Shown here in pieces: positions 26,147 through 48,874 of a DNA stretch of 64,000 bases. Source of the DNA: a virus; IMG/VR virus record IMGVR_UViG_3300004463_000226, positions 170,336-234,335 of that record; one strand, written 5' to 3'. The notes below the pieces were generated by a model that did not search any database, was not told where the DNA came from, and saw only the letters and a program-made list of their open reading frames with translations. The translations under genes were made by a program, and so were the position numbers. Positions within the stretch are counted from its first letter, which is position 1. The number at the start of each line of letters is the position of its first letter.

Positions 26147-28417
26147 TCATAGATCTAAATCAATAACCATCTTACCTTCAATTCGTTTACTCCATTCAAT
26201 GTCCTTCTTAACTTGGTCTTCGAACTCTTCTGGAGTACCAATAAATAGCTTTTCGTTCTTGTATTCTTCTCGGATGTTATGTTCACGAAGATATTCTTCA
26301 TATTTCTCTTTGGTACAAACATACATTGTACCATCAATCATGTAGTCCCGTATCTCATCTGTATACAAGTCTACATTCATTCTTTCATCAGAGAATACTA
26401 GTCGAATACCCATAGCCTTAAAATAAGCCTGTAAGATTTCAACATTTCGATTAGTGAACTCATCAGAATACTTGAAGTCTTTAATTGGCTTGATGTTGGT
26501 TGCTAGTTGTTCACCAAGGTCTCTTCGTCCGATGACTGAAGAACGATAGAATAGATGTAACTGCGCAATTATATTTGTAGGTACGCCAATAGCACTGTTT
26601 ATGTTCTCTTGGTCACCTATACGTATTGGAGTCTTACTATATAACTCTTGATGTGTTTTAGCTTTATTAGATTTCTCAGGAATACCTTTCTTACTTAAGC
26701 TTCCTGTTGAACGTACACTGAAACCTTTCTTAGATGTCTGCTTTAACTTGATAACATACATATCGCCGACAACAAGTTTTTTCAGTACTTTAATTTTACG
26801 ACCAAATCTATTAACATATACATCATATGGTTTGATCCAGTCAAACTCTTTATACAAGTCTCTGATTCTATCGAATAGAGGCTCTTTTTCCCATAGTGGT
26901 GGGATATGGATGAATATACCTTCATCCTCAATACTCTTAAAGAATATTCCCTGTTCCATTAAGCTCAGCTTATCAATGAACTTTCTTAATTTTTCCTCCT
27001 GCTCTTTATTAAAGTACCAGACAGTTCTTAATAGAAGTTCTGTTTTCTCTTTAATAGTATCAAGAGTAGCCAATCTTTCTTTGACACGGTTACAAATGAA
27101 TGTAATGGACTGCTCAAATAGCTGCTGGGAGTTTAATCGGTTGATTACTCCTAATGTATTAAAGATAATATCTACACGTTCTCCTGTTTCTAGGAAAGGC
27201 ATTTCATCATCTGGTAGGATCTTAGAAATAACACCTTTATTACCATAACGTCCAGTAATCTTTTGACCTACTCCTAGTGGGATATCACGTTGAATAACAA
27301 ACTCAATAATCATGTTGCTGAATACTGAGTTATCTTCTTCTCTCCACTTGTAATTAGGATCTAGGATATCTCTAGCTTTCTTGTAATAATAGTTAATATC
27401 TTTGGAGTATTTAGATCCAGAATTAATAATTCTTTCACAACGATCTTTAACCTGCTCATAGAAAGAACGCTGCATTTTAAGAATATCTAATATCTGAGCA
27501 TTGAATGTATTATCATCTAATTCTTCGATAGTTTTGTTAGAGTAGATAGTAATATCCACAATTTGTCCATCGCAGAAAGATAATACATCTGATGAGAAAT
27601 TGATTTTGCGCAGATTAGATTTCTTTACATCATATAATAACTGATTGTTATGTATACGGCGCTTTGCACATACAATCTTGTCCTTAACATACTCATTAAT
27701 GTTAGGGAAACATTTGTAGTTTTCGGAATCACCATATAAATTACATAAGATATCATTGTCATTTAATGACACTTTAACTGTTTCGATTTCCTTAGAAATC
27801 ATGGATTTAGAGAAACTTTCAGATACCATGATAGCATCCTCGATGGTATTGTTTTCAAGCATGTATACAAACTTTGCATTCTTCCCATAGCAGTAATTCA
27901 TGTTATCGTCGTAAGAAGTTGTTTTGTAAAGTACTTCATCCTTCTTAACAACATCTCCAACAGATTTACTGTCCATGTTCTTATTGTTGTAGACAAACCC
28001 GAATTTCTCTGTTAAATCCTCTACATTTCTTTTCATGATAACATCATACATGTCATTCTCTTCATCATACACAAACAACAGGTACGAATGGTCATCATTG
28101 ACCCCGTTTTGGAATCTTGAAATCTTGTCAATGATTTTCAACTGACTCTTAGCCTGATAATACCCAGTAGAGTATTTACCAACTAGATTTTCATAGTTGG
28201 TAAATACCTTAGGGAAATCAGGATGGAGTACATTGACAAATTGTCTTAGATGGCTGGTAAACATAATATTCCTTGAAGATGAGATGTATCCAGGATTCGT
28301 TAATAATGTCATTCCAAATATATCATCTTTGAAATGAAGCTCTCTTTCTTTTTCCTGTAACTTCTCTCTTAACTGCACTGAGGATGGTATGTTTCTTTTA
28401 TCCTTATCAATTGCCAC
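26147..28417 (-). CDS. Non-virion RNA polymerase, beta subunit C-terminal half
   Basis: 756 residues matching the second half of RpoB. NTIEDAIMVSESF corresponds to the 'FEDAI.IS' motif. GQKITGRYGNKGVISKILPD corresponds to 'GDKMAGRHGNKGVIS', with lysines and glycines that contact the nucleotide path. DIIFNTLGVINRLNSQQLFE corresponds to 'DI.LNPLGVPSRMN.GQ..E', and MYVIKLKQTSKKGFSVRSTG to 'YMLKL.H...DK..ARSTGPY'. Together with the gene at 13943-15622 it would rebuild a complete beta subunit. GTG start with AGGAGGGTTTACAG. It has its own early-type promoter. Confidence 0.92.
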   Translation of the reverse strand: MAIDKDKRNIPSSVQLREKLQEKERELHFKDDIFGMTLLTNPGYISSSRNIMFTSHLRQFVNVLHPDFPKVFTNYENLVGKYSTGYYQAKSQLKIIDKISRFQNGVNDDHSYLLFVYDEENDMYDVIMKRNVEDLTEKFGFVYNNKNMDSKSVGDVVKKDEVLYKTTSYDDNMNYCYGKNAKFVYMLENNTIEDAIMVSESFSKSMISKEIETVKVSLNDNDILCNLYGDSENYKCFPNINEYVKDKIVCAKRRIHNNQLLYDVKKSNLRKINFSSDVLSFCDGQIVDITIYSNKTIEELDDNTFNAQILDILKMQRSFYEQVKDRCERIINSGSKYSKDINYYYKKARDILDPNYKWREEDNSVFSNMIIEFVIQRDIPLGVGQKITGRYGNKGVISKILPDDEMPFLETGERVDIIFNTLGVINRLNSQQLFEQSITFICNRVKERLATLDTIKEKTELLLRTVWYFNKEQEEKLRKFIDKLSLMEQGIFFKSIEDEGIFIHIPPLWEKEPLFDRIRDLYKEFDWIKPYDVYVNRFGRKIKVLKKLVVGDMYVIKLKQTSKKGFSVRSTGSLSKKGIPEKSNKAKTHQELYSKTPIRIGDQENINSAIGVPTNIIAQLHLFYRSSVIGRRDLGEQLATNIKPIKDFKYSDEFTNRNVEILQAYFKAMGIRLVFSDERMNVDLYTDEIRDYMIDGTMYVCTKEKYEEYLREHNIREEYKNEKLFIGTPEEFEDQVKKDIEWSKRIEGKMVIDLDL

Positions 28418-28456
28418 CTGTAAACCCTCCTAGAATTTTAATCTTTTTACTTTATT

Positions 28457-28466
28457 ATAATATATA
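28457..28466 (-). promoter_or_regulatory. Early promoter motif TATATATTAT
   Basis: Minus strand, 40 bp before the GTG start of the RNA polymerase beta-C gene. Confidence 0.62.
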
Positions 28467-28473
28467 TTTCATA

Positions 28474-29712
28474 TTACAATTCTTCGTCATGCTCCCCGAT
28501 AATACGTACTCCCAATCGCTCGATGATTTCCATTTCTGTTAGAGCTTTAACAGTTTCGTTTGGATCTACGCGGGAAAGTGTTCTTTCAAGGAATGGTACT
28601 GTAGTATCAAATAATGCAAAACGTATCTTTTCATCTTCCAAGAACTGTTTGCGGAATTTACGATTATCAAATCTTGCTTCCTCATGACCAGTAAAGTAAC
28701 GTTTAGGGTTTCGTCCTTCAACGAGACCGTTATCTTCAGCAAACTGATACTGTGTCAAGATAGGATCAAATCCAAGTTCTTGGTTATAGATTAGACGGCA
28801 GAATTGACCTGCTTTGTTAGTACGTGATTTTAAGAACTCACAACGAACTGCAAATCCATCAAATCCGTTTTCAGATTCTTCTAGCTTACCATTATAAACA
28901 AACTTAACTAATGTATGCGCATAGTAAATAGGAGCGTTACCACCAGGCATAGACTCATCTTGTTTCATGTAGTTAAGCTGAGCTTGAGTCTTAGCAAATG
29001 GGTTAATCTCCATTTTGTAGTTAATATGGTTAATAGCAATAACAATGATGTTATAAGCTTTGATGATTGGTGTTAAGCGTTTGTAGAACTGTGCTAATGC
29101 TTTAGCTACACGGTTAGCATAAGTTCCACCTTCCATTCCAGGGTTAGTGTCTTTAGAAGACATTGTTGGAATAGAGTCTAAAATAACTACAGTTGGTACG
29201 TATGATAATATCTTCTGATTAAACTCATTCAACAGACCAGTATCATACATGTAGTCTTCACGGTTTTCTTCTTTCTCTTTAGCTATAGCTTCAATGGAAT
29301 CATAAATATCCTCAATAGTGGATTTCTCCTGCTTTAAGTTATACTTTTCCATTAAATCATACTGACTAAAGCCGTTAACATTTTTAATACGTGTATAGGT
29401 TAATGCTTGTTCAAGGTCATAATGCTGAACCATTCCTGATTCGAACCTTTTAACAATATTAGAAGCCATCTGAATAGCAAATGTAGTCTTTGCTACACCT
29501 GACTTACCTACGATGGTAATAAATGATCCACCTACAGCTCCTGTTGATGGATACTCTGTAACGAGATTATCTTCCATATCTCGTACTTGAACCATATAAC
29601 CATTACGATAATCGAATGGTGCGAACCCTGTTGAATAACCTACTGCTGTCTGGGTTCTTGTAAATAATCCTTTTTTGTCTTTTGCACGTAATCGTGACAT
29701 TAAGGTAGCCAT
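28474..29712 (-). CDS. RecA/UvsX-like recombinase
   Basis: 412 residues. Walker A GKSGVAKTT (69-77), Walker B-like VVILDSIPTM (about 175), and a later basic/aromatic region typical of phage RecA-fold recombinases. Pairs homologous strands in recombination-dependent replication and repair, together with the SbcCD-like proteins. The GVAKTT loop differs from the canonical GSGKTT. It could instead be a KaiC/RadA-like paralogue, but length and context favour a UvsX-type recombinase. ATG after AAGGGAGGAATAAAATTA. Confidence 0.85.
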   Translation of the reverse strand: MATLMSRLRAKDKKGLFTRTQTAVGYSTGFAPFDYRNGYMVQVRDMEDNLVTEYPSTGAVGGSFITIVGKSGVAKTTFAIQMASNIVKRFESGMVQHYDLEQALTYTRIKNVNGFSQYDLMEKYNLKQEKSTIEDIYDSIEAIAKEKEENREDYMYDTGLLNEFNQKILSYVPTVVILDSIPTMSSKDTNPGMEGGTYANRVAKALAQFYKRLTPIIKAYNIIVIAINHINYKMEINPFAKTQAQLNYMKQDESMPGGNAPIYYAHTLVKFVYNGKLEESENGFDGFAVRCEFLKSRTNKAGQFCRLIYNQELGFDPILTQYQFAEDNGLVEGRNPKRYFTGHEEARFDNRKFRKQFLEDEKIRFALFDTTVPFLERTLSRVDPNETVKALTEMEIIERLGVRIIGEHDEEL

Positions 29713-29771
29713 TAATTTTATTCCTCCCTTATTTATCTCTATATGAATGTTGGTAAGTGATTAAAAACTTA

Positions 29772-30008
29772 CTACACCTCATATATTGGAGATCTTCTAG
29801 CTAGATGTGTTTGCTCTGGTTGTGATTTAGAATCTTCCTCTTGCAATGCCTTTAATACAATATCCAAATATTCCATTGAGTAAATAGTACACACTCTCTC
29901 TGGTGACATAGATCCGTCAGGATTAATAATACCATCTTTTTTCATGATATCATAACCCTCACCATGTTTCCCTGGTGCAACATAATAACCTTTATCAGCT
30001 CCTATCAT
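29772..30008 (-). CDS. Small hypothetical protein, 78 aa
   Basis: Not recognised. ATG after AAGGAGGTGAATAT. Basic-acidic mix, no motif. Lies directly upstream of the recombinase gene and is probably co-transcribed with it. Confidence 0.72.
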   Translation of the reverse strand: MIGADKGYYVAPGKHGEGYDIMKKDGIINPDGSMSPERVCTIYSMEYLDIVLKALQEEDSKSQPEQTHLARRSPIYEV

Positions 30009-30061
30009 ATATTCACCTCCTTAAATTATTAATATACAGTTTCAAATTTGAAAAAGAAGAT

Positions 30062-30085
30062 GACTATTCCAAATAAGGAATAGCC
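30062..30085 (-). terminator. Rho-independent terminator
   Basis: 9-bp stem GACTATTCC / GGAATAGCC (one G-U pair) followed by ATCTTCTTTTT on the minus strand. Confidence 0.78.
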
Positions 30086-30093
30086 ATAATCTA

Positions 30094-30972
30094 TTAATAC
30101 TGAAGTTTATCAACTTTGCCATCAATATGTAATTTGAATACTGTTTGGAAACGTTTATTTAAATGACGAGTTACATAATCATATCGCCGTTTTTCTTCTG
30201 GTGTTTCTGCGCGCATTTTAGATTTAGAGAATAAAGTGATAGCTTTATAGTTATCCTTAACCAGCGCTGCTACACTCTCTTCTAAATTAGTATAACATAC
30301 TATCGTATGCTTAGATGTATCAACCACTTCATCCAGAGCTTCTATATCCTTATAATGAACTAATATTAACTTAGTTGGCTTAGATGGGCGGAATGATCTA
30401 ACACGGTATTTTGTAGTTCTTTCAGCCTCAATAGCTGGTCGTGTTGTTATATTTAATTCAATATTACCAGTATTAGATTGAAAGAATTCATACTGGGTAA
30501 TAACATTAGTCTTCTGGTCTAATAAATCAATTCTTAAGCTCGCAGAAGGGCTATTAAAAGAAGTGATGAATGAAAATTCAGCACCTAACAAGAAAAACTC
30601 AAGCATAAATGTATTATTGTTAATTACATTTATTACTTTCTTTCCCTCTAGGAATAATGAGCCTAGTAGAATATTTTTAAGATTATAATTGCGCTCTGTA
30701 ACAAACGGCTTAAATTCCTTATCATTGAATATAACTGCTGTAGTAGAGTTAGCAATTGTTACAGGATAAGAAGTTTGTCGTGTCTTAGCGATGAATGAAT
30801 TAAATTCATCTATTTGTTTAATTAACTGCCGATACATGATAATATTAATTGATTTCTTCTTAATGGTTACTTTATTATCTCGTACTTCTTTAGACTTACT
30901 TAGTCGGATCACAGAAGTATTGATAGCATCAATATTCCAACATAATTTCGTTTCATTGTATACTGAAATCAT
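30094..30972 (-). CDS. Hypothetical protein, 292 aa
   Basis: Not recognised. Strand-rich first 200 residues (INVINNNTFMLEFFLLGAEFSFITSF) and a basic, helical C-terminal third. ATG after GGGGGAGGATAAAA. Flanked by terminators, so it forms a separate unit in an early-type neighbourhood; a DNA-metabolism role is possible but unsupported. Confidence 0.8.
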   Translation of the reverse strand: MISVYNETKLCWNIDAINTSVIRLSKSKEVRDNKVTIKKKSINIIMYRQLIKQIDEFNSFIAKTRQTSYPVTIANSTTAVIFNDKEFKPFVTERNYNLKNILLGSLFLEGKKVINVINNNTFMLEFFLLGAEFSFITSFNSPSASLRIDLLDQKTNVITQYEFFQSNTGNIELNITTRPAIEAERTTKYRVRSFRPSKPTKLILVHYKDIEALDEVVDTSKHTIVCYTNLEESVAALVKDNYKAITLFSKSKMRAETPEEKRRYDYVTRHLNKRFQTVFKLHIDGKVDKLQY

Positions 30973-31029
30973 TTTTATCCTCCCCCAAAATCTGGAAATT
31001 TTATATTTTTTTATCTAAAAAGATGTTGA

Positions 31030-31052
31030 GGGAGTAGTAAAAAGTTACTCCC
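31030..31052 (-). terminator. Rho-independent terminator
   Basis: GGGAGTA / TACTCCC stem followed on the minus strand by TCAACATCTTTTT. Confidence 0.7.
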
Positions 31053-31410
31053 TTTTACTATCGTAAATAACGAGAGCTCCGTCAACTCTCTTAGATTCTA
31101 ACTGAACATCGAATACAGGGATTTTCAACTTTGTATATTTACCTTTACTCCAATGATCTTGTTCCATAACACCATTTATCAAAGCATTAAATGTCTTTGA
31201 TGGTACTCTTAATTGTATAGCATCTACTTTGTCACTATATTGCCTGAAATATCCTCCACCAGCATCACCTGCTTCAAAAGGAACAATCCCAGATAAGTTA
31301 TTTTTATCCCGTATACGGTCTAATATATCCTTAAATAATTGACCAGAAACATAGAATAATGTTGCTTCGTTACTAACATCAATAGACTTTACCAAGCATA
31401 GAATTGACAT
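31045..31410 (-). CDS. Hypothetical protein, 121 aa
   Basis: Not recognised. Compact alpha/beta protein with a glycine-rich turn (AGDAGGGYF). ATG after AATAGGAGGAACCTCA. Single-gene unit between two terminators. Confidence 0.76.
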   Translation of the reverse strand: MSILCLVKSIDVSNEATLFYVSGQLFKDILDRIRDKNNLSGIVPFEAGDAGGGYFRQYSDKVDAIQLRVPSKTFNALINGVMEQDHWSKGKYTKLKIPVFDVQLESKRVDGALVIYDSKRE

Positions 31411-31446
31411 TGAGGTTCCTCCTATTTTAGAAAAAAAATATTAAGA

Positions 31447-31470
31447 GGGAGATAACAATTGTTATCTCCC
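31447..31470 (-). terminator. Rho-independent terminator (perfect palindrome)
   Basis: 24-base perfect inverted repeat, arms GGGAGATAACAA / TTGTTATCTCCC, then TCTTAATATTTTTTTT on the minus strand. Confidence 0.85.
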
Positions 31471-31479
31471 ATTGTTTTA

Positions 31480-32349
31480 TTACAAGAATGCTTTTACATC
31501 TTCGTCTTTTGCAAGTTTAGCCACTACCTTCATGATAGTTGGGAAATCTTCCTCAGAGATTTGCGCAAACTGAATGCGGCGTGCAACATCACGTTTCTTT
31601 TCAGCATCCTTAGCACGAGCTGTTACATAATACTTGATGATTTGTTTTACATCCTCTTTCTCATTCTTCTCGATAGTTGCTAATGCAAAGTTAGTCATAA
31701 CATTCCACATAGCTAACTGATTATCATTGAAGTTGCGGATGTTTTCCTTACGTTCAAGTAAGATATTAACTGCAACATGCTCCAGCAGCTTCTTGCCGAA
31801 TAATGCTTTGAAAATCTTTTTAACCTGTTTAGGCTTTTCAATACCAAGATCATTGTCTTTAGCAAGCGCATAGAACTTGGACAAGATGCGGAATACATAC
31901 ATAGCGATTAACTTTTCGTTCTGAATCATTTCAGGTTCAGGTAACACAACGAGAAGTTCTGTAGCCAGCTGGTCGCTGATTTTAACTTCTTCTTTGAGTT
32001 CTTTAATACGCTTCTTAAGCAGCTTGTGTACAGCCTTTTTATACGACTCAATGATATCTTCATCGAGATTCTCACGACGACGGCGTAAGAAGTCACTGAT
32101 TACTGTAGCCATACCAATATCAACTGGAGTAGCATCAGAAGTTTTCATGATACGCAATAACGTTTTAACGAACTTTTCGTCTTCCATTTTATCGAATAGC
32201 TCGTCAACCATCTCCTGTGCTTTGAAGCCTTTCTTGATATAAAACTCAACAATATTTGATGTGTGGTCGAAAAGGATATTCGTACGATAATCCTTGTCCT
32301 TAAGGTTTTTACCTTTCCACTCTTTAAAAAATTCTTTAATTCCTGACAT
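31480..32349 (-). CDS. Helical protein of unknown function, 289 aa
   Basis: Not recognised. Almost entirely alpha-helical and highly charged (multiple KK/EE runs, e.g. KKRIKELKEEVK about 122-133), resembling a HEAT-like or armadillo-like helical repeat by composition only. ATG after TAGGAGGACATCATA. Encoded next to the tubulin-like gene; a link to filament or nucleoid organisation is speculation. Confidence 0.8.
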   Translation of the reverse strand: MSGIKEFFKEWKGKNLKDKDYRTNILFDHTSNIVEFYIKKGFKAQEMVDELFDKMEDEKFVKTLLRIMKTSDATPVDIGMATVISDFLRRRRENLDEDIIESYKKAVHKLLKKRIKELKEEVKISDQLATELLVVLPEPEMIQNEKLIAMYVFRILSKFYALAKDNDLGIEKPKQVKKIFKALFGKKLLEHVAVNILLERKENIRNFNDNQLAMWNVMTNFALATIEKNEKEDVKQIIKYYVTARAKDAEKKRDVARRIQFAQISEEDFPTIMKVVAKLAKDEDVKAFL

Positions 32350-32415
32350 TATGATGTCCTCCTAGAAAATATATTTTTTATAATAAATTTTACTTACTAA
32401 CATGTTTATGGTCTA

Positions 32416-33546
32416 TTACTTTTTTACGTAAAGGTTAAATACGTCATCTAAGTCAATCTCATTAACATCGACAGCTTTCTTAGAATCACTTGCACGTAAG
32501 TCATCAATAAGATCTGTTGCAGCAACATCCAAGATTGAAGATTCCTTAGTACGTGTTAACAACGCTGTAGCTTCATCAATACGCTGAACAATCTTTTCAA
32601 TTCTGTCATCAGGAACAGACAAACCTGACATAATTACAGCCACTCGATTTGTTTCATCTTCTGACTGATTAATATAAATATGCTCAAATCCTTCTACTGG
32701 CTCACCGACTAGATCCTTTACTTTAGGAATGTTAGTATCCAAGGATTTATAAACCTTTTCATTAAGGTTAACAATCAAACCTAAACGTTTGATAATTTGG
32801 TCACGATCTAACTCAGCATGAGCACTAGATTTAATGCTGTCGATTAAACGAGTTTCAAGATCTCTTTCGTCGATGTCTTTTTCTTTAACACCGAATGTAC
32901 GATTGATTACAAGACGACCAGTTGTTTCAATCAGCTTCAACATGTCTTTCTCGTCGATGCTATTGAATGGTGTTGTCTTTTGATAATCGCCGCGAACTAC
33001 CACCATGTCTTCAACGATTTCGCGATTAACTGTTTGCAGCATTTCATTAATAAGCTTGTTGGAATAGTTGTTATTATCATAAAGCTTATATACTGGATCA
33101 GATTGACGCATCTCCTTTAGATAGTCAATTGTATTTTGTTGGGCTGCAATTGATTCTTTCAATGGAGGTAAGATACCAATAAGAATGAATCGCTTGCTTG
33201 GGAATATACGCCCTAGAATATCATACATTACTGGAGCCATACCAGAACCAGTTCCACCACCAGTAGAACTTACAATGAAGACTACTTCATTATTTTTAAC
33301 AACATCAGCAAATATTGGTTCGCTGATTAGTTGTTTAATATGTGCTTGGATAAATGATTTAGCTATATTGCGATCTTTACCTGCTCCTTTTTCATCACCG
33401 ATAACAAGTGATGAAACAGCTGAAATTGTCTTAACATCTTTGTCAGAGCTATTTAGAGCAATACCATCAATGTCATAAACTTTCTTTGCTAACTCTGCAA
33501 CTTGATTCCCTGCGTTACCAATTCCGATTACTCCAATTTTCAACAT
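32416..33546 (-). CDS. Tubulin/FtsZ-like cytoskeletal GTPase (TubZ/PhuZ class)
   Basis: 376 residues. The nucleotide-binding signature STGGGTGSGMAPV (94-106) is the tubulin/FtsZ G-box. The N-terminal GIGNAGNQVAEL is the first Rossmann-like loop, and DGIALNSSDKD the second. In phiKZ-type phages such a filament (PhuZ) centres the replicating phage DNA and moves capsids; related TubZ proteins segregate plasmids and phages. The C-terminal tail lacks a long FtsZ-type linker. ATG after AGGGAGAGAAATAAT. Confidence 0.9.
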   Translation of the reverse strand: MLKIGVIGIGNAGNQVAELAKKVYDIDGIALNSSDKDVKTISAVSSLVIGDEKGAGKDRNIAKSFIQAHIKQLISEPIFADVVKNNEVVFIVSSTGGGTGSGMAPVMYDILGRIFPSKRFILIGILPPLKESIAAQQNTIDYLKEMRQSDPVYKLYDNNNYSNKLINEMLQTVNREIVEDMVVVRGDYQKTTPFNSIDEKDMLKLIETTGRLVINRTFGVKEKDIDERDLETRLIDSIKSSAHAELDRDQIIKRLGLIVNLNEKVYKSLDTNIPKVKDLVGEPVEGFEHIYINQSEDETNRVAVIMSGLSVPDDRIEKIVQRIDEATALLTRTKESSILDVAATDLIDDLRASDSKKAVDVNEIDLDDVFNLYVKK

Positions 33547-33547
33547 A

Positions 33548-33883
33548 TTATTTCTCTCCCTTATTTGAACTAATGTATTTTTCAGTAATTCTAACTAACT
33601 CGCCTTCAATACGCTCACATGACTTCTGAGCCTCTTCTATAGTATGTTTCATACCAGCAAGTCTATCATTTAATAAAAACCATCTTCCTAAGTCAGTGGA
33701 ATTTACTTTAGGTAGTTTTTCAAGGCACTCGGAGCATAGAAAATATCCTACCTCTGAACCTAGTACAGTAAACTCAATTTGATGCTTAGCTTGAGATTTA
33801 CACCAACCACCATTATTGCTACATTGACATGTACCCTCACTGTTTATATCTTTAACAGTTACTTGTTTTTCGAATTCTGTCAT
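33548..33883 (-). CDS. Cys-rich zinc-finger-like protein, 111 aa
   Basis: Two cysteine pairs, CQC (with a third Cys in GGWCKS) and CSEC (YFLCSECLEKL), could bind zinc. C-terminal helix. It ends one base before the tubulin-like gene starts, so it heads that operon. ATG after GGAGAGGAGATTTCTA. Role unknown. Confidence 0.75.
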   Translation of the reverse strand: MTEFEKQVTVKDINSEGTCQCSNNGGWCKSQAKHQIEFTVLGSEVGYFLCSECLEKLPKVNSTDLGRWFLLNDRLAGMKHTIEEAQKSCERIEGELVRITEKYISSNKGEK

Positions 33884-33929
33884 TAGAAATCTCCTCTCCT
33901 TAAAACAATTATTATTTGATTACCCTTTG

Positions 33930-33939
33930 ATAATATATA
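33930..33939 (-). promoter_or_regulatory. Early promoter motif TATATATTAT
   Basis: Minus strand, 47 bp before the zinc-finger/tubulin operon; leader contains AATCAAATAATAATTG, a variant of the shared early-leader element. Confidence 0.62.
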
Positions 33940-33957
33940 TTTGTATATCCTATTGGA

Positions 33958-34167
33958 TTATACCGCAGCTTGTGCTTGTTCCATTAACTGTTTAATCTCA
34001 TCTATCTTTTTCTTCGTTTTATTAATTTGATTATAGATATGATGACGTTGTCTAACACAATGTGATGGGAGCTCTCTATTTTTCATTTCTAACTCCATTA
34101 AGATAGCTTCCTGAACATTTAATTTTTCCATATACATTCTTATTCTCGCTCTACCTTTTTTAGCCAC
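33958..34167 (-). CDS. Small basic protein, 69 aa
   Basis: Not recognised. Starts at GTG with AGGGAGATGG; MAKKGRARIRMYMEKLN and several Arg/Lys suggest nucleic-acid contact. C-terminal helix ending KQLMEQAQAAV. Confidence 0.7.
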   Translation of the reverse strand: MAKKGRARIRMYMEKLNVQEAILMELEMKNRELPSHCVRQRHHIYNQINKTKKKIDEIKQLMEQAQAAV

Positions 34168-34199
34168 GTTAATCCATCTCCCTTAGAAAGTATATTTGT

Positions 34200-34511
34200 T
34201 TACCAATTTGCATATTCTTCTCTAGGAACTATTCTCAATGGTGTTACACCACGGAACACACAAACTTTACCATTTTCAACTCTTCTTAAATCCTCTTCTA
34301 ATGCCTCACATTCAATGAGCTCAAAGTCTCTTTTTGTATGCTTGTGTACATTATTCACGAATTCCTTAAAGTAACAGAATATCCCAGAATAATCAGATGT
34401 TATTATCGCAGGTACATATTCATTCATTTTATATATGAATGAAGGATTACCCACACTAGTTAATGTTCCATCGGCTTGGGTCTCCACATATTTATAAACT
34501 AACAACATCAT
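34200..34511 (-). CDS. Hypothetical protein, 103 aa
   Basis: Not recognised. Beta-rich (VGNPSFIYKMNEYVPAIITS). ATG overlaps the previous stop (ATGA); GGAGGG lies just upstream, so a slightly later start is possible. Confidence 0.7.
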   Translation of the reverse strand: MMLLVYKYVETQADGTLTSVGNPSFIYKMNEYVPAIITSDYSGIFCYFKEFVNNVHKHTKRDFELIECEALEEDLRRVENGKVCVFRGVTPLRIVPREEYANW

Positions 34512-34762
34512 CCCTCCGCATCTAATTTCCTTATTCTAGCCTTGTACGTTTCAATTTCTTTACGTTTTCTTGCAATTCTGTTATCAATGTGGTTCCTATG
34601 TCTACTATACTGTACTGTCCTTGATGAAAAGTAATCTGCTAGACTTCCATCTCCTGTTCTCCCATGCATTACTTTCTCAGTCATTAATTTTGCTAATTCT
34701 CCCTGCAACTTACCTACTTTAATTGAAAATCTCATAACCTTTTGTCTTTTTGATTCAGCCAT
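34508..34762 (-). CDS. Small basic helical protein, 84 aa
   Basis: Not recognised. Basic and helical with RHRNHIDNRIARKRKEIETY. ATG after AGAAGGAGGAGAAACA; early-type promoter 33 bp upstream. Confidence 0.72.
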   Translation of the reverse strand: MAESKRQKVMRFSIKVGKLQGELAKLMTEKVMHGRTGDGSLADYFSSRTVQYSRHRNHIDNRIARKRKEIETYKARIRKLDAEG

Positions 34763-34794
34763 TGTTTCTCCTCCTTCTATATGTATACCATTAA

Positions 34795-34804
34795 ATAATA
34801 TATA
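34795..34804 (-). promoter_or_regulatory. Early promoter motif TATATATTAT
   Basis: Minus strand, 33 bp before the start of the 84-aa gene. Confidence 0.6.
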
Positions 34805-34810
34805 AATAAA

Positions 34811-35197
34811 TTACTTTCTACATATTACTACTTTGAGATTTAAAGCATCTAATAGATTAACTAAGCTCTCAAATGATCCAGTCTGTCTGTTTTGTTTTAT
34901 ATGATATATCTGCTGTCTTGAAATTTCCTCTGTAACTTTAGAAACCATTCCATATGTTAGATTCGTATTATCAATTTCTGTTCTTATTAAATTACATATA
35001 TCATCTCGGGTTCTAACAACAGTCTCAATTTCTGGAGAAACTTTAGCATTTATAACTGATCTTATGTAGTTATGTGTATTTCTGGTTCTCTCCAATATAA
35101 AATTTGTCTCATAAATCTTTCTTTGTTTAGTAGTAATTTCATGATGATTAATTCCTGATATTTCTAACCACTTATTAAATACATCTCTATCTATCAT
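34811..35197 (-). CDS. HTH-like protein, 128 aa
   Basis: The C-terminal third (YGMVSKVTEEISRQQIYHIK then FESLVNLLDALNLKVVI) has Cro/XRE-type helix spacing, suggesting a DNA-binding regulator. N-terminal half unknown. ATG after AGAGGAGATGTTGTC. First gene downstream of its own early-type promoter. Confidence 0.72.
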   Translation of the reverse strand: MIDRDVFNKWLEISGINHHEITTKQRKIYETNFILERTRNTHNYIRSVINAKVSPEIETVVRTRDDICNLIRTEIDNTNLTYGMVSKVTEEISRQQIYHIKQNRQTGSFESLVNLLDALNLKVVICRK

Positions 35198-35228
35198 GAC
35201 AACATCTCCTCTACCTAATGTCGTATGA

Positions 35229-35238
35229 ATAATATATA
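35229..35238 (-). promoter_or_regulatory. Early promoter motif TATATATTAT
   Basis: Minus strand, 32 bp before ATG 35197. Confidence 0.62.
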
Positions 35239-35254
35239 AATCAAATAAAATAAA

Positions 35255-35273
35255 GATACTCGTAATGAGTATC
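35255..35273 (-). terminator. Rho-independent terminator
   Basis: GATACTC / GAGTATC with a 5-nt loop followed by TTTATTTTATTT on the minus strand; ends the 52-aa gene. Confidence 0.72.
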
Positions 35274-35274
35274 C

Positions 35275-35433
35275 TTACTTACCGTTTAAGTTCTTTTCAT
35301 GAGCTTCCTTGATCATTGCATCAAGAGATTCTGATGTAACAGTCTTTTTAGATGGATCTGCAATAGATAAATCTCCAAATACACCTTGTTCTGTCACAAT
35401 TGCTAATTCTTCATTATGTGTAACATTGGACAT
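35275..35433 (-). CDS. Small late protein, 52 aa
   Basis: A short open frame with a good site (AAAGGGGGAACAACC before ATG 35433), its own late-type promoter (36 bp upstream) and its own terminator. Begins MSNVTHNEELAIVTEQG and ends AHEKNLNGK. Not recognised. Small size, a dedicated late promoter and the absence of neighbours on its transcript suggest a minor virion or late accessory protein. Confidence 0.72.
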   Translation of the reverse strand: MSNVTHNEELAIVTEQGVFGDLSIADPSKKTVTSESLDAMIKEAHEKNLNGK

Positions 35434-35457
35434 GGTTGTTCCCCCTTTCCCTTCGAT

Positions 35458-35469
35458 TACATCTATGTT
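35458..35469 (-). promoter_or_regulatory. Late promoter motif AACA-N6-TA
   Basis: AACATAGATGTA on the minus strand, 36 bp before ATG 35433 of the 52-aa gene. Confidence 0.55.
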
Positions 35470-35513
35470 CCCCTTGTATTATTTTTTAAAATAGTATTTT
35501 TAACTTTATTATC

Positions 35514-35523
35514 TATATATTAT
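35514..35523 (+). promoter_or_regulatory. Early promoter motif TATATATTAT with conserved leader
   Basis: Plus-strand TATATATTAT 65 bp before ATG 35579. The leader holds a GTGAATAT / ATATTCAC hairpin and AATCAATAATAATTGGGGG (from 35552), nearly identical to the leader before ATG 37358. Confidence 0.65.
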
Positions 35524-35578
35524 AACAGTGAATATAAATAGTATATTCACTAATCAATAATAATTGGGGGAATTAGTT

Positions 35579-35986
35579 ATGACAAATCTTAACACGGCTC
35601 AAAAGGTAACAATTCATGGTGTGGGTATGGTAGCTTTAACTGAGGATAAAAAGATGTATGTAGTTAAAAATGTTGAGGTATCTCAACGTACTACATATCA
35701 TCCTGTAACATTGGATCAACGTACTGACGATGTATATGAATTACAAATTGTGCGTGAAGTAACTTTAGAAGATCTTCGTCAATTGGTTGCAAATAAAGCT
35801 GTAGGTATTTTCAATGGTCATACTGCATATGTTAAAACTTGGGCATATGCTAATGAATTATTAACTGATATTGAGATCTTCCGTATTGAAGGTAATCATG
35901 AATTAGCTGATAGATTAGAAGAATCTCGTAAACCTAAAGTTGAAGCTGACTATGAAGCTTCTGATGTGATTGGTTTCTATTTCTAA
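35579..35986 (+). CDS. Hypothetical early protein, 135 aa
   Basis: Not recognised. ATG 35579 with GGGGGAATTAGTT. Beta-rich N-terminal half; C-terminal helix rich in Glu. Head of a plus-strand block of small early-type genes (35.6-38.2 kb) embedded in minus-strand territory. Confidence 0.78.
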   Translation: MTNLNTAQKVTIHGVGMVALTEDKKMYVVKNVEVSQRTTYHPVTLDQRTDDVYELQIVREVTLEDLRQLVANKAVGIFNGHTAYVKTWAYANELLTDIEIFRIEGNHELADRLEESRKPKVEADYEASDVIGFYF

Positions 35987-36025
35987 GATCTTGTAGTAAA
36001 AAATAATAAATCGGGGGAAATGAAT

Positions 36026-36391
36026 ATGTTAAATATTAAAAAAGAATCTGATTTTGCTGAGTTGCTTAGAACGTTAACGAATATTAATAGTGGCTTTAAA
36101 AGTGTCGAAATAAAGGAAATCAAAAACGATCCAGATGATGATGACCTTTATGATCAAGAAGATACTCATACAATGACAGATCTACGTGGCGATAAATATA
36201 TCGTAGATGATGAAGAATCTTCTCTTGCAGATCTATGTTCTGTATTGATTACCGATGGCGGGAGACCTGATTATGATTATATCAGTAAACTAAAAGCTGC
36301 TGGATTTGATGTATTCCCAACTGAGAAAGATAGCTTCGGTTGGTTGGGTGCGGCTGTTCGTACTAATAAAGGATTAATCTTCTTCGGATAA
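36026..36391 (+). CDS. Hypothetical acidic protein, 121 aa
   Basis: Not recognised. ATG 36026 follows GGGGGAAATGAAT. A strongly acidic stretch (NDPDDDDLYDQEDT) near residues 33-46, then an alpha/beta domain. Highly acidic small early proteins can act as DNA mimics in phages, but no evidence beyond charge supports that here. Confidence 0.75.
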   Translation: MLNIKKESDFAELLRTLTNINSGFKSVEIKEIKNDPDDDDLYDQEDTHTMTDLRGDKYIVDDEESSLADLCSVLITDGGRPDYDYISKLKAAGFDVFPTEKDSFGWLGAAVRTNKGLIFFG

Positions 36392-36412
36392 AAAGAAAGG
36401 TGGTAATTGATT

Positions 36413-36727
36413 ATGGAATTTAAAGATATTAAAGAAGGTATGACATTATATGAAAAATGGCATAAGGTTTCAGTAATTGATATATTCACTGATGTTCCAA
36501 AGCCAAATGATGTTGCAGTTCTATATGTTAATTCAGGAACAGGTTATGATATTCGAATCAGAGGTGCCTCTCAGTTATCTGAAACACCTATTAACTGTTG
36601 GAATTGTAAACGTGATATAATTGATAACGTGAAGATAAAAAGATGCTTCAAATGCAGAAGAGCGATATGCCCAAGTTGCTCAAAATGTCATTGTGGTACT
36701 ACCTGGGATCCAATTAAAAGATCCTAA
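36413..36727 (+). CDS. Zinc-finger protein, 104 aa
   Basis: The C-terminal half has eight cysteines and one histidine arranged CWNC-x(14)-CFKC-x(5)-CPSC-x(2)-CHC, two interleaved zinc-binding sites resembling treble-clef/FYVE-like or RING-like folds. N-terminal strand-rich segment. ATG 36413 with AAAGGTGG. Unknown partner; such early zinc proteins may act on host transcription. Confidence 0.75.
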   Translation: MEFKDIKEGMTLYEKWHKVSVIDIFTDVPKPNDVAVLYVNSGTGYDIRIRGASQLSETPINCWNCKRDIIDNVKIKRCFKCRRAICPSCSKCHCGTTWDPIKRS

Positions 36728-36805
36728 TATTAAAATGTAATAATATACAATACATATAGGTAATTATATACCTATACACATAACAATAATCGGAGGAATA
36801 AAACA

Positions 36806-37207
36806 ATGAACAAAATTACTATCTCTACACCAGTATTCTATAAGGAATCTTTCGGAAAACCATTATATCAATTATTAGCTTATGATGCTCATAATGATGT
36901 TTGGTATGTGCAGGATGTTGTCCGTGGTTGTGAAGCTCCAGTATTAAGTAATATTGATATAACACAGGTCAGCACTGATGTAGAAATATTTACTAAGGTT
37001 CAGCCTGAATCCAAAATCATTAAGAATACTTGGACTACAGCTGATACAATTACCTATCTGAATAGCTTAGGGATTCCTGCTTCTGATAAATTATCAAAGA
37101 CTATTGAAGAAAGGCTTACGACGGGTTATAATCCTGTCGTAGACTTCTCTAATTTTAGTTTAGATACTTCTCAAATCGGAAAATTAGATTTATCTGTTGC
37201 TAAATAA
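36806..37207 (+). CDS. Hypothetical protein, 133 aa
   Basis: Not recognised. ATG after ATCGGAGGAATAAAACA. Mixed alpha/beta, no motif. Followed by a strong terminator, so it closes the 35.6-37.2 kb unit. Confidence 0.76.
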   Translation: MNKITISTPVFYKESFGKPLYQLLAYDAHNDVWYVQDVVRGCEAPVLSNIDITQVSTDVEIFTKVQPESKIIKNTWTTADTITYLNSLGIPASDKLSKTIEERLTTGYNPVVDFSNFSLDTSQIGKLDLSVAK

Positions 37208-37215
37208 TACAAGTG

Positions 37216-37237
37216 AGACTACTCAAGTGAGTAGTCT
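37216..37237 (+). terminator. Rho-independent terminator
   Basis: Perfect 9-bp stem AGACTACTC / GAGTAGTCT followed by TATTTTTTTT on the plus strand. Confidence 0.88.
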
Positions 37238-37288
37238 TATTTTTTTTATGTGTCCCTGATATGTAATACGTAAAGTATATTATATTAA

Positions 37289-37299
37289 TTACATATTAT
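37289..37299 (+). promoter_or_regulatory. Early promoter variant TTACATATTAT with conserved leader
   Basis: One base off TATATATTAT. Followed by the same leader as at 35514: TGAATATA / TATATTCA hairpin, then AATCAATAATAATTGGGGGA (from 37331), before ATG 37358. Confidence 0.55.
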
Positions 37300-37357
37300 A
37301 ATAGTGAATATAAATAATTATATTCAAAATAATCAATAATAATTGGGGGAATTAATT

Positions 37358-38233
37358 ATGAAAATCTTATTAAACAGCAGCGAAACAAAATTGGTGAAAG
37401 AAATCAAAGAACGTTTTCCAAAAGCATTTGAATCAGCTACTAAATCTTTCAACAAGGTAGTTGAAGTTCGCGAAGGTGATAAAGGATATACTATCTTTGT
37501 TAAACCTGCATTTATTAAGGATACTGTTTATATGATCCTTAATAAAGTTGTACCTGCATATCACATGATTAAGTCAGCTTTCAAGTTTATGAATCTTGGT
37601 GCATTTGGCTTTGAAGAGTTTAGTGACAAATGGTTTCCAAAAGAAGTTCCAGCTCCTGAAGATATCAAGGATGTAACTAAACAATCTGATGATATTATGA
37701 GTGACATTGAAGCACAGGAAATTATCCAAATTCGCAAGGAATTAAAAATTATGCATTCGAGTGCAGAGTTCCTTGGAAGACCTAAATTAGCTGGACGTAT
37801 TCGACGTGTAATTGATGATTGTAAAGTTATGGTTAATACAGGTAGATTTACAGACTGTTACACTGTTGCAGGTTTGAATGCATTTAGGGATGCCACATCT
37901 AAGAGAATTTCCAATGTAAGAAAAGGACAATCAATGTTCAAAAAAGACGTTTACCATGTAACTAATAATGTTGTTGTCGAGGAACCAGTTGATAAGGAAG
38001 CTAAAGAACTCAATAAACTTATTGAGAACTTTAGAGATGTTCGTAATCAAGCTCTCATCCTGAATAAATATTCTATAGCTCTTGGATGTGACAAGTTCAT
38101 TAATGTATGTGAAAATAGATTACATACTGGTGTATATGAGGATGATCATGATATATCATCTCTTCAAATGGAATGTGGTGCTAAGGAAGCTGAAATCGAT
38201 TATGTAAAAGAAGAACTCGCTACAAGAAGTTGA
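37358..38233 (+). CDS. Hypothetical protein, 291 aa
   Basis: Not recognised. ATG 37358 with GGGGGAATTAATT. N-terminal 100 residues compact, then charged helices with several KEL/EEL heptads. It has its own early-type promoter and a convergent terminator. Confidence 0.8.
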   Translation: MKILLNSSETKLVKEIKERFPKAFESATKSFNKVVEVREGDKGYTIFVKPAFIKDTVYMILNKVVPAYHMIKSAFKFMNLGAFGFEEFSDKWFPKEVPAPEDIKDVTKQSDDIMSDIEAQEIIQIRKELKIMHSSAEFLGRPKLAGRIRRVIDDCKVMVNTGRFTDCYTVAGLNAFRDATSKRISNVRKGQSMFKKDVYHVTNNVVVEEPVDKEAKELNKLIENFRDVRNQALILNKYSIALGCDKFINVCENRLHTGVYEDDHDISSLQMECGAKEAEIDYVKEELATRS

Positions 38234-38245
38234 TAATTAAAATAT

Positions 38246-38273
38246 GGTAATGGATACTTTCGTATCCATTACC
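38246..38273. terminator. Bidirectional terminator
   Basis: Perfect 12-bp stem GGTAATGGATAC / GTATCCATTACC with a TTTC loop, between convergent genes; T-rich tracts on both sides. Confidence 0.85.
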
Positions 38274-38292
38274 TGTTTCATATTTATTTTTT

Positions 38293-39015
38293 TTACGTAT
38301 CTAATGTCTTCTTAACAACCAGACCATTAGTTATAAGGTCAGATTTTATTCCCATTCCTATTAGATGTACATCCACAGCATTAAGAGTAACCTTATTGTC
38401 CACATCATTTGTCAGTGTACTTAAAGATACAAATCCTTTTTGCGCAATAGATGAATACATCTCATTCTTCATTACCATATCATCGGCACGAGGACCCATT
38501 AACTCTCTAAGTGTCTCTGTAGCATCAATTGTAACTAATGCGAAGTTCTCCGTATCTGAGTCACGGGCATTCTTATCTCGACCAACTACTTGTCCTGTTA
38601 ATGCAGAACGACTAGATACTTCAGTAGATGTTGTATTCTTTTTACTAAGAATCTGCTGCATGCGTTTAACATGTATGAACCCAACTGGTACTTCGAATTT
38701 AGTAATAACAGGATTCTCTTTATTGTTATTTGCAAAAGGCATTACTACACGTTCAAATAAAGGAACTCCTAAACGTTTAGCTGCTTTTTCAACATCTTCA
38801 ATTTTAAGATCCCGTTCATAATCAACAACATCTAATACCAAATATTCATCTTCAGTAGCAAAGAACTTCTTAAAGAAAGAATCAAACTGAGCATCATTCA
38901 TTGTTTTAAACATGTCTCGATATTTACTAGAGTTTGTTTTAGTACTATCTAAATCATCGAAGACATTATATATAAGATCCTCCATTTTTTTTCTTGTAGC
39001 CTTACTTATAGCCAT
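38293..39015 (-). CDS. Probable virion RNA polymerase, beta subunit C-terminal fragment
   Basis: 240 residues. The stretch FEVPVGFIHVKRMQQILSKK aligns with the RpoB 'VGYMYMLKL.H...DK' segment. SSRSALTGQVVGRDKN is at the position of 'ARSTGPY..VTQQPLGG', and TENFALVTIDATETLRELMG with RADD matches 'EMEVWALEAYGA...L.E.LT.KSDD'. It therefore looks like the extreme C-terminal part of a second beta subunit, distinct from the 26147-28417 gene. A late-type promoter (39043-39054) fits a packaged virion polymerase made late. Alignment is by eye. Confidence 0.6.
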   Translation of the reverse strand: MAISKATRKKMEDLIYNVFDDLDSTKTNSSKYRDMFKTMNDAQFDSFFKKFFATEDEYLVLDVVDYERDLKIEDVEKAAKRLGVPLFERVVMPFANNNKENPVITKFEVPVGFIHVKRMQQILSKKNTTSTEVSSRSALTGQVVGRDKNARDSDTENFALVTIDATETLRELMGPRADDMVMKNEMYSSIAQKGFVSLSTLTNDVDNKVTLNAVDVHLIGMGIKSDLITNGLVVKKTLDT

Positions 39016-39042
39016 TTCCTATCACCTCTAGTCAGGATTAAT

Positions 39043-39054
39043 TAATAATATGTT
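39043..39054 (-). promoter_or_regulatory. Late promoter motif AACA-N6-TA
   Basis: AACATATTATTA on the minus strand, 39 bp before ATG 39015. Back-to-back with a plus-strand late site 4 bp away. Confidence 0.58.
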
Positions 39055-39057
39055 GAA

Positions 39058-39069
39058 AACATAGATTTA
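39058..39069 (+). promoter_or_regulatory. Late promoter motif AACA-N6-TA
   Basis: AACATAGATTTA, 32 bp before ATG 39090. Confidence 0.53.
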
Positions 39070-39089
39070 AATAAAAGGAGGTAATGAAT

Positions 39090-39536
39090 ATGGTATTAGT
39101 TAAGTATCACAGGAAAGGTCATGTCTCAATAGCAGATGCTACTCACACCTATCCATATGGAGAAATAAAGACTATAGACATAACTCATTATAGATTAGAT
39201 GATAGGCAAGAAGTAAATATAGTAATAGACAATGAACCTGACTTTAAAATAAACTTTCTAGATCATTTAGATAAAAAAATTGTGATATCTCCTTATGCTA
39301 TTAAATCTGTTAATGACGAGAATGGCACTTTAATTTCATTAAATGTATATGAAGACTGTCTAACTCATGGATCACTATCACTTCGCAACATAGGAATGTT
39401 TGAAATCACCCATGATACCAGTGAAGGTAAGGATGAAGTTTCAATTGCTGTGGATGGTGAAAATATATTCCGTTTTGATAACAACTATACTGGAAAATGT
39501 ATTATCACAAATAACATTCAACATAAACCTCACTAA
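39090..39536 (+). CDS. Late hypothetical protein, 148 aa
   Basis: Not recognised. ATG 39090 with GGAGGTAATGAAT (an earlier in-frame ATG is too close to the site). Strongly beta-rich, with repeated hydrophobic-charged strands, like small virion decoration or tail proteins. A late-type promoter is directly upstream. Confidence 0.75.
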   Translation: MVLVKYHRKGHVSIADATHTYPYGEIKTIDITHYRLDDRQEVNIVIDNEPDFKINFLDHLDKKIVISPYAIKSVNDENGTLISLNVYEDCLTHGSLSLRNIGMFEITHDTSEGKDEVSIAVDGENIFRFDNNYTGKCIITNNIQHKPH

Positions 39537-39558
39537 TCGTATTTCCAATCTTTCTATT

Positions 39559-39568
39559 TATATATTAT
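39559..39568 (+). promoter_or_regulatory. Early promoter motif TATATATTAT
   Basis: Plus-strand exact motif, 57 bp before ATG 39616. Confidence 0.58.
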
Positions 39569-39615
39569 AAATACGAGGTGAAATGATTATAGACAGAAAC
39601 GGGGAATAATGAAGC

Positions 39616-39852
39616 ATGGATTTAGTACTAATCAAGAATAAGGGTAAAATCAAAGTTTATCATGGGACACTGGATTACCATGAAGCAAACCATCATTTCT
39701 TCGCCACCGTGGTTGATGGACAAATTCAAGACCTAGTAGTTCACACATTGGATGAAGATCAGATGAAAATGACTCCAGTAGATGAGTATACTAAGGGCGC
39801 ATTATTTGAGATCCTAACAGAGGAGTATGTACAACAAAGCGTCCCAGTGTAA
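39616..39852 (+). CDS. Small hypothetical protein, 78 aa
   Basis: Not recognised. ATG after GGGGAATAATGAAGC. Starts MDLVLIKNKGKIKVYH, loosely like the start of the 148-aa neighbour (MVLVKYHRKGHVSI), which may be a distant relation. Closed by a terminator. Confidence 0.7.
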   Translation: MDLVLIKNKGKIKVYHGTLDYHEANHHFFATVVDGQIQDLVVHTLDEDQMKMTPVDEYTKGALFEILTEEYVQQSVPV

Positions 39853-39861
39853 GGGGAGGAG

Positions 39862-39888
39862 AAAGAGAGACATCGCGAATCTCTCTTT
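39862..39888 (+). terminator. Rho-independent terminator
   Basis: Perfect 9-bp stem AAAGAGAGA / TCTCTCTTT followed by CCCTTATTTTCTTTT. Confidence 0.75.
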
Positions 39889-39937
39889 CCCTTATTTTCT
39901 TTTGTAAAAAAATATATAACGAAATGGGGAGTACATA

Positions 39938-40264
39938 ATGTCATATATTGATGATCAATTGGGTTTTGAAACAGTGTATAATTTTTCTGAGGAGATTGAT
40001 ACATTTCTCCATAAAGAAAATTTTTCATACGATAATATATTCGCCATATTCGAAAGAACTTTCCATCGGGTAGATAAAAATATAGAAATATCCGTAGTAG
40101 TATATAGAAGCTCCATACATTGTAAGGTGTTTAAAAAATCTGTAGATAAAAAGAAGGTTGAAACAAAAGTAAATTATGATGTATGTGACTTTGAAAGTTT
40201 TAAAGACGCCTATGATAAGATTATAGAATTTATCAAAAATGATGTATTGACAAGGAGCTACTAA
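39938..40264 (+). CDS. Hypothetical protein, 108 aa (tandem duplicate A)
   Basis: Not recognised. Begins MSYIDDQLGFETVYNFSEEI and shares layout with the next gene (MSYIESMLNLKQELTFEPSK; F/YR-x-S-I-Y motif; KSxxKKxV...), so the two are tandem paralogues. ATG after AAATGGGGAGTACATA. Confidence 0.76.
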   Translation: MSYIDDQLGFETVYNFSEEIDTFLHKENFSYDNIFAIFERTFHRVDKNIEISVVVYRSSIHCKVFKKSVDKKKVETKVNYDVCDFESFKDAYDKIIEFIKNDVLTRSY

Positions 40265-48805: not shown

Positions 48806-48828
48806 ACTACCTCTCCTTTCTTATCTCT

Positions 48829-48838
48829 ATAATATATA
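48829..48838 (-). promoter_or_regulatory. Early promoter motif TATATATTAT
   Basis: Minus strand, 24 bp before the start of the topoisomerase A gene. Confidence 0.58.
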
Positions 48839-48845
48839 AATCTAA

Positions 48846-48868
48846 TAGGGCTAGGAATCCCAGCCCTA
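48846..48868 (-). terminator. Rho-independent terminator
   Basis: TAGGGCT / AGCCCTA stem with extra inner pairs, followed by TTAGATTTATATATT on the minus strand, between the topoisomerase B and A genes. Confidence 0.65.
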
Positions 48869-48874
48869 CATCTA

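Follow-up and report, generated by a model that had tools for sequence, protein, structure and literature searches.

What kind of tubulin does this phage locus encode, and which of its neighbors works together with it? The locus lies in what we call the window, the whole stretch of 64,000 nucleotides analyzed here, which covers bases 170336–234335 of a 234,335-base IMG/VR virus record (IMGVR_UViG_3300004463_000226). An initial annotation had described a tubulin/FtsZ-like gene, one base behind a Cys-rich gene, driven by an early-type promoter and followed by a 289-aa all-helical protein. Our results bear out this layout. The tubulin gene (32416–33546, minus strand) encodes a 376-aa protein that scores above the cut-off of the Pfam Tubulin family PF00091 (E 3.6e-15; 57.2 bits, where 33 are required). 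Upstream, with a single base (33547) between its ORF and the tubulin ATG, sits the Cys-rich, zinc-finger-like gene (33548–33883, minus strand, 111 aa). Further upstream is a predicted early promoter of the virion RNA polymerase, an exact copy of the AR9 early consensus (33923–33942, minus strand), whose predicted transcription start lies 40 bases 5' of the Cys-rich ORF. On the other side, 66 bases separate the end of the tubulin gene from the start of the 289-aa ORF (31480–32349, minus strand). It is likely that the tubulin gene is part of an operon.

The wider context is that of a known group of jumbo phages. Next in line is a 292-aa protein (30094–30972, minus strand; family F8), which is conserved in this place only within the window's clade, in eight of the nine loci there. 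Beyond it follow a UvsX-like recombinase (28474–29712, minus strand; phrog_97, E 1.3e-37), 37% identical to those of AR9 and PBS1, and a phage RNA polymerase beta subunit (26147–28417, minus strand; phrog_3295, E 1.2e-115). The beta subunit stands next to UvsX as in AR9 and PBS1, and the window also carries topoisomerase II genes. Going by this gene content, the window phage is an AR9/PBS1-like jumbo phage. There is no close DNA relative of bases 28000–40000 in the phage collection, and no tRNA or tmRNA gene in window positions 1–64000. Elsewhere in the window, a gene at 56842–57537 (minus strand) has relatives (L004:14633-15322, L006:1464-2117 and L011:10560-11441) that lie between pieces of RNA polymerase beta, UvsX or topoisomerase genes. 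Because of this position it resembles a homing endonuclease in an intron.

The tubulin looks complete and catalytically competent, judged by its motifs. The G-box sequence GGTGSG (residues 97–102) is invariant in all 25 core sequences and the glycine before it is present in 24 of them; D198 and D201, the aspartates of the T7 loop, are likewise invariant (25 of 25). The predicted structure has a mean pLDDT of 78.4, with residues 337–376 mostly below 50. A fold search with this model returned TubZ of phage c-st (4xcq) at the top (Z 32.0, rmsd 2.5 over 292 residues), then Bacillus cereus TubZ (Z 31.9), CetZ2 close by (31.0) and FtsZ from 28.5 down. PhuZ is absent among the 50 matches listed, which is a weak ground for exclusion. 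Compared with the PDB by sequence, the protein matches TubZ (4xcq) with E 1.7e-16, CetZ with 2.2e-13, FtsZ with 4.5e-10 and PhuZ with 2.8e-4. The best reading of sequence and predicted fold is that the protein is a TubZ-type tubulin and not a PhuZ.

At the C-terminal end of the protein, a conserved tip (residues 364–376 plus stop, 32416–32457, minus strand) follows a variable linker: mean column entropy among the core tubulins is 1.47 in the body (residues 1–330), 2.45 in the linker (337–358) and 1.70 in the tip (363–374). Residue 373 is F or Y in 25 of 25 core sequences, and in an alignment the acidic-hydrophobic tip is similar to that of c-st TubZ. The available text of PMC5322520 describes that the C-tail of Clostridium botulinum TubZ presents a partner-binding site. 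The tip is also present in TubZ relatives outside the core family, namely L061 and L063, where the tubulin stands beside a TubR-like gene, and L062, where no such gene was seen upstream. Hence, the tip is not specific to phages with the helical protein.

How widespread is this tubulin? Successive searches gave 5, 9 and 27 viral tubulin loci (overlapping sets), and another 7 came from genome contigs. The core family consists of 30 records (the 27 viral ones, L058, L059 and the window), which represent 22 distinct loci once near-copies are collapsed (L002/L003, L038/L039/L055, L040/L041/L042, L045/L054, L048/L056 and L051/L052). The other five genome loci, L060–L064, are distant from the core. 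Our tree has 43 rows; L042, L048, the truncated L064 and identical sequences were left out, three plasmid TubZ proteins are included and c-st TubZ is absent. In this tree the core tubulins (23 rows) form one clade with support 98/98 and PhuZ (7 rows) a separate clade with 100/100, but the long branches of PhuZ and FtsZ meet and the position of phage G is unsure. The plasmid TubZ proteins and the distant loci are placed outside both clades. The contigs of L058 and L059 are filed under Lachnospiraceae MAGs, which hints at Firmicute hosts. Among cultured phages we found none with this tubulin except the distant phage G, whose tubulin is 24.8% identical to that of the window.

The conserved companion of the tubulin is the downstream helical protein, not the Cys-rich gene. 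The helical protein lies directly 3' of the tubulin in 29 of the 30 records (21 of 22 distinct loci), with gaps that range from −4 nt (an overlap, in L057) to 136 nt. BLAST clustering alone places it there in 20 of 22 distinct loci, and the profile adds L047. The exception is record G007, in which a homologue of the partner (191038–191709, plus strand; E 2.6e-12) is encoded about 11 kb from the tubulin (179443–180597, minus strand). When the partner was used as the query instead, all nine loci found were on tubulin-bearing contigs. The pair occurs in two main gene orders. In the window clade (9 loci) it stands with UvsX and RNA polymerase beta, and in a second clade, clade B (11 loci), it stands between virion-structural-type genes and topoisomerase II; L047 and L053 show neither order. 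The two orders are not wholly disjoint, because two other families occur in the fetched stretches of some loci of both: a topoisomerase II family (F10; four window-clade and three clade B loci) and a mobile endonuclease-like family (F13; four and two). Gene F4 of clade B is a topoisomerase II as well, and so is the stretch 46394–51277 of the window. In seven cultured jumbo phages whose UvsX is related (AR9, PBS1, SA1, LPJP1, BpSp, phiR1-37 and Machias, of which AR9 and PBS1 are one species), tubulin and partner are both missing by profile. A search of cultured phages for the partner gave nothing above chance level (E 3).

What the partner is can so far be approached through its shape. The 289-aa protein is predicted to be all-helical and alpha-solenoid-like (mean pLDDT 88.7). 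Nothing in the PDB matches it significantly, either by sequence (best E 0.058) or by fold (best Z 7.4, a range common for the tool); calling it a solenoid adaptor is thus a guess based on shape. We do not propose a TOG-like tubulin binder: the HEAT-type proteins listed, such as CLASP2 (8whh, Z 5.3), and those of eIF4G/Pdcd4 type (Z 5.5–5.7) score too low to be specific. In BFVD there are three full-length matches (A0A8S5TGM0, A0A8S5UTP4 and A0A8S5UFH2; TM 0.58–0.69, 11–13% identity), which are uncharacterized proteins of Myoviridae sp. ctIty1, ctYA416 and ctcyQ27.

The predicted promoters suggest when the two genes may be expressed. The AR9 early consensus is AAATATATATTAT-6N-G and the late one AACA-6N-T(A/G), as given in the available parts of PMC5312081. 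The exact early motif occurs three times in the window against 0.02 copies expected from shuffles, each time 33–66 nt 5' of an ORF start on the same strand. If the bare 13-mer is searched with one mismatch allowed, there are 5 copies against 1.99 expected, and 5 of 100 shuffles reach 5; hence, only the exact form counts. In five distinct relatives (L003, L005, L006, L047 and L058) an exact early promoter lies 64–91 nt 5' of the matched tubulin start with no gene between, and three others (L004, L036 and L059) have a looser form, by a pattern devised within this analysis, directly 5' of the tubulin. The distance to the tubulin is 397 bases in the window, where the Cys-rich gene lies between, and 588 in L053. 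By exact and loose pattern together, the AR9-type early motif is missing before the tubulin in 12 of 22 distinct loci. A predicted late promoter of the nvRNAP type (AACATGTTAGTA, 32395–32406, minus strand) lies in the gap between tubulin and partner and begins 57 nt 5' of the partner ATG. The late motif is found at most 90 nt 5' of the partner in five of the nine window-clade loci (window, L003, L006, L036 and L058) and is missing in the other four; outside that clade, only L059 has it among nine other loci scanned. The scan, done post hoc on 18 of the 22 distinct loci, had an expectation of 0.04–0.11 per locus. In those five window-clade loci, such a promoter would allow late synthesis of the partner as well, at the time when DNA and capsids have to be transported.

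On balance, we lean slightly towards the following explanation, which draws on sequence comparison and predicted structures: the phage makes a TubZ-type filament that uses a dedicated helical partner instead of TubR, that is, a two-part cytoskeleton. The gene of the TubZ-type GTPase would be transcribed early by the virion RNA polymerase, and its product would then polymerize into a dynamic filament. The alpha-helical partner would dock on this filament, with the conserved C-terminal tip as a plausible site, and link it to a cargo such as capsids, a replication compartment or DNA under replication. The partner would thereby stand where TubR does in the plasmid, phage c-st and phage G systems. 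We infer the physical interaction between tubulin and partner from their co-occurrence and their position in the operon, neither of which proves contact.

One could argue instead that the Cys-rich gene is the relevant partner. The initial annotation had suggested that the zinc-finger protein regulates the filament, and the one-base spacing to the tubulin together with the common upstream promoter speaks for it. The protein has cysteines at positions 19, 21, 28, 50, 53 and 89 and histidines at 34 and 80, in a CxC...C...CxxC arrangement, and its zinc binding is putative; no Pfam, PHROG or NCBIfam family matches it at a meaningful score. Against a regulatory role, a pattern scan of viral_contigs found no relative beyond the window's own copy, none of the 14 other records has the gene, and the five distinct relatives named above have their early promoter directly 5' of the tubulin. 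The gene seems to be an insertion peculiar to this phage, set between promoter and tubulin; most likely it is an early gene that has nothing to do with the tubulin and lies 5' of it in this phage only. We regard a regulator of this kind as highly improbable; the locus is a real variant of phage tubulin, for which a zinc-finger regulator is unsupported. Two further observations concern Cys-rich proteins: the window encodes a second small Cys-rich ORF (36407–36727, plus strand, 106 aa) with several CxxC pairs, and the gene after the tubulin in L053 (L053:9327-10364), where no helical partner is adjacent, matches a zinc-ribbon family weakly (PF13453, E 4.1e-4, under the cut-off). The helical protein, in turn, could be an independent gene that simply travels with the tubulin. 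Genes side by side in an operon need not share a function, the loci within each gene order have other neighbors in common too, and in five of nine window-clade loci the protein possibly has a late promoter of its own. We nevertheless consider this rather unlikely, because the pair is kept in two largely different gene orders and even when unlinked in G007, and both genes are missing together in all seven related cultured phages.

The remaining alternatives concern the tubulin. Phage spindles are known from chimallin phages, in which PhuZ moves a protein nucleus. According to the annotation's phiKZ-like reading, the window tubulin would be such a PhuZ, which centers a proteinaceous phage nucleus and whose neighbors are incidental. 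This would fit with phage RNA polymerase subunits of the phiKZ/AR9 type and with a match to phrog_4733 (tubulin PhuZ; residues 5–207, E 3.2e-10). The best PHROG, however, is the unnamed phrog_17961 (residues 7–371, E 1.7e-13), the PDB match to PhuZ is weak next to that of TubZ, and the core and PhuZ clades are separate, subject to the long branches mentioned above. We also screened 12 core records (9 distinct loci, some of them possibly fragments) for chimallin, TubR and RNA polymerase beta. Chimallin was found in none of the 12 by a profile that did detect the control 201phi2-1; a diverged shell protein could escape it. RNA polymerase beta was found in 11, the twelfth being a 73-kb contig. 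We consider a phiKZ-type spindle quite improbable. TubZRC-like partition of a phage episome during pseudolysogeny, with a TubR that is unlinked or unrecognized, is also unlikely in our view. TubR is the DNA-binding adaptor of the plasmid and phage c-st TubZ systems, and both the fold and the tail of the window tubulin are TubZ-like. The genes directly 5' of the tubulin in phage G, L060, L061, L063 and L064 together form a profile that matches TubR (4asn, 1.7e-15; 6tey, 3.4e-9), and three plasmid relatives have a similar small gene in this place. Weak and partial winged-helix matches occur away from the tubulin in 4 of the 12 core records (G004, the best with E 2.1e-6, G008, G005 and G002). A review, in its available text, ties phage tubulins to segregation in pseudolysogeny (PMC7824862). 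Yet a TubR adjacent to the tubulin was found by profile in none of the 12 core records, while it was found in phage G, pBM400 and G012. No centromere repeats (tubC) or iteron array were seen around the locus, where the 20 repeats listed include only two-copy direct-repeat families, although diverged iterons can escape, and a conserved neighbor that is not TubR is in place. As far as the profiles reach, with neither chimallin nor an adjacent TubR detected, the locus fits neither the PhuZ-chimallin type nor canonical TubZRC. Pairs that do look like TubR and TubZ are gp137–gp138 of phage G (L026:4683-6116; gp137 alone against 4asn, E 0.0022) and those of L061 and L063 (Eubacteriaceae/Clostridia MAG contigs) and L064 (a Turicibacter MAG).

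There is also a more far-reaching explanation, which we offer tentatively and consider possible rather than probable. Jumbo phages that lack chimallin may have a second, independent tubulin cytoskeleton derived from TubZ, in which a dedicated alpha-solenoid protein couples the filament to phage cargo, having taken over from TubR; where some of these phages also have the late promoter, assembly of the filament may come early and its loading late. What we observe is a clade of tubulins from phages whose multisubunit RNA polymerase is of the kind that chimallin phages have; chimallin is not detected in them, and a partner is conserved. If tubulin and partner act as a unit, a cytoskeleton would have arisen in jumbo phages at least twice, and the pair would offer a specific candidate mechanism by which a phage filament keeps hold of cargo. 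The available parts of the literature mention that FtsZ/tubulin has two distinct representatives among jumbo phages and that tubulin correlates with multisubunit RNA polymerases (PMC7824862), and name Bacillus phages among the carriers of PhuZ homologues (PMC7950403). The pair is absent from the accessible portions of PMC10299810, PMC7824862, PMC5312081, PMC5322520, PMC13282480, PMC7950403 and PMC12908238. By title and abstract, no publication that we found pairs a tubulin with a helical protein in phages lacking chimallin; PMC12625630, a survey from 2025 on phages with chimallin and phuZ, possibly includes the clade.

How does this locus compare with known systems? The TubZ of C. botulinum phage c-st and of Bacillus/Priestia plasmids (TubZRC, type III partition) is the best match in sequence and fold and has a similar tip. 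The window phage differs in that there is no adjacent TubR and a helical partner lies downstream instead, and its tubulin belongs to a clade of its own. With the nucleus-forming phages, such as 201phi2-1, PhiPA3 and Churi, the window phage shares a jumbo-phage tubulin GTPase and multisubunit RNA polymerase genes, but their PhuZ falls into a separate supported clade and chimallin was not found in the 12 core records screened. Bacillus phage G also has a jumbo-phage tubulin (gp138); it has a TubR-like gene (gp137) directly upstream and, by profile, no helical partner. AR9 and PBS1 (Takahashivirus) and the Staphylococcus SA1-like jumbo phages resemble the window phage in the order UvsX then RNA polymerase beta and in the AR9 early consensus, but they carry neither the tubulin nor the helical partner.
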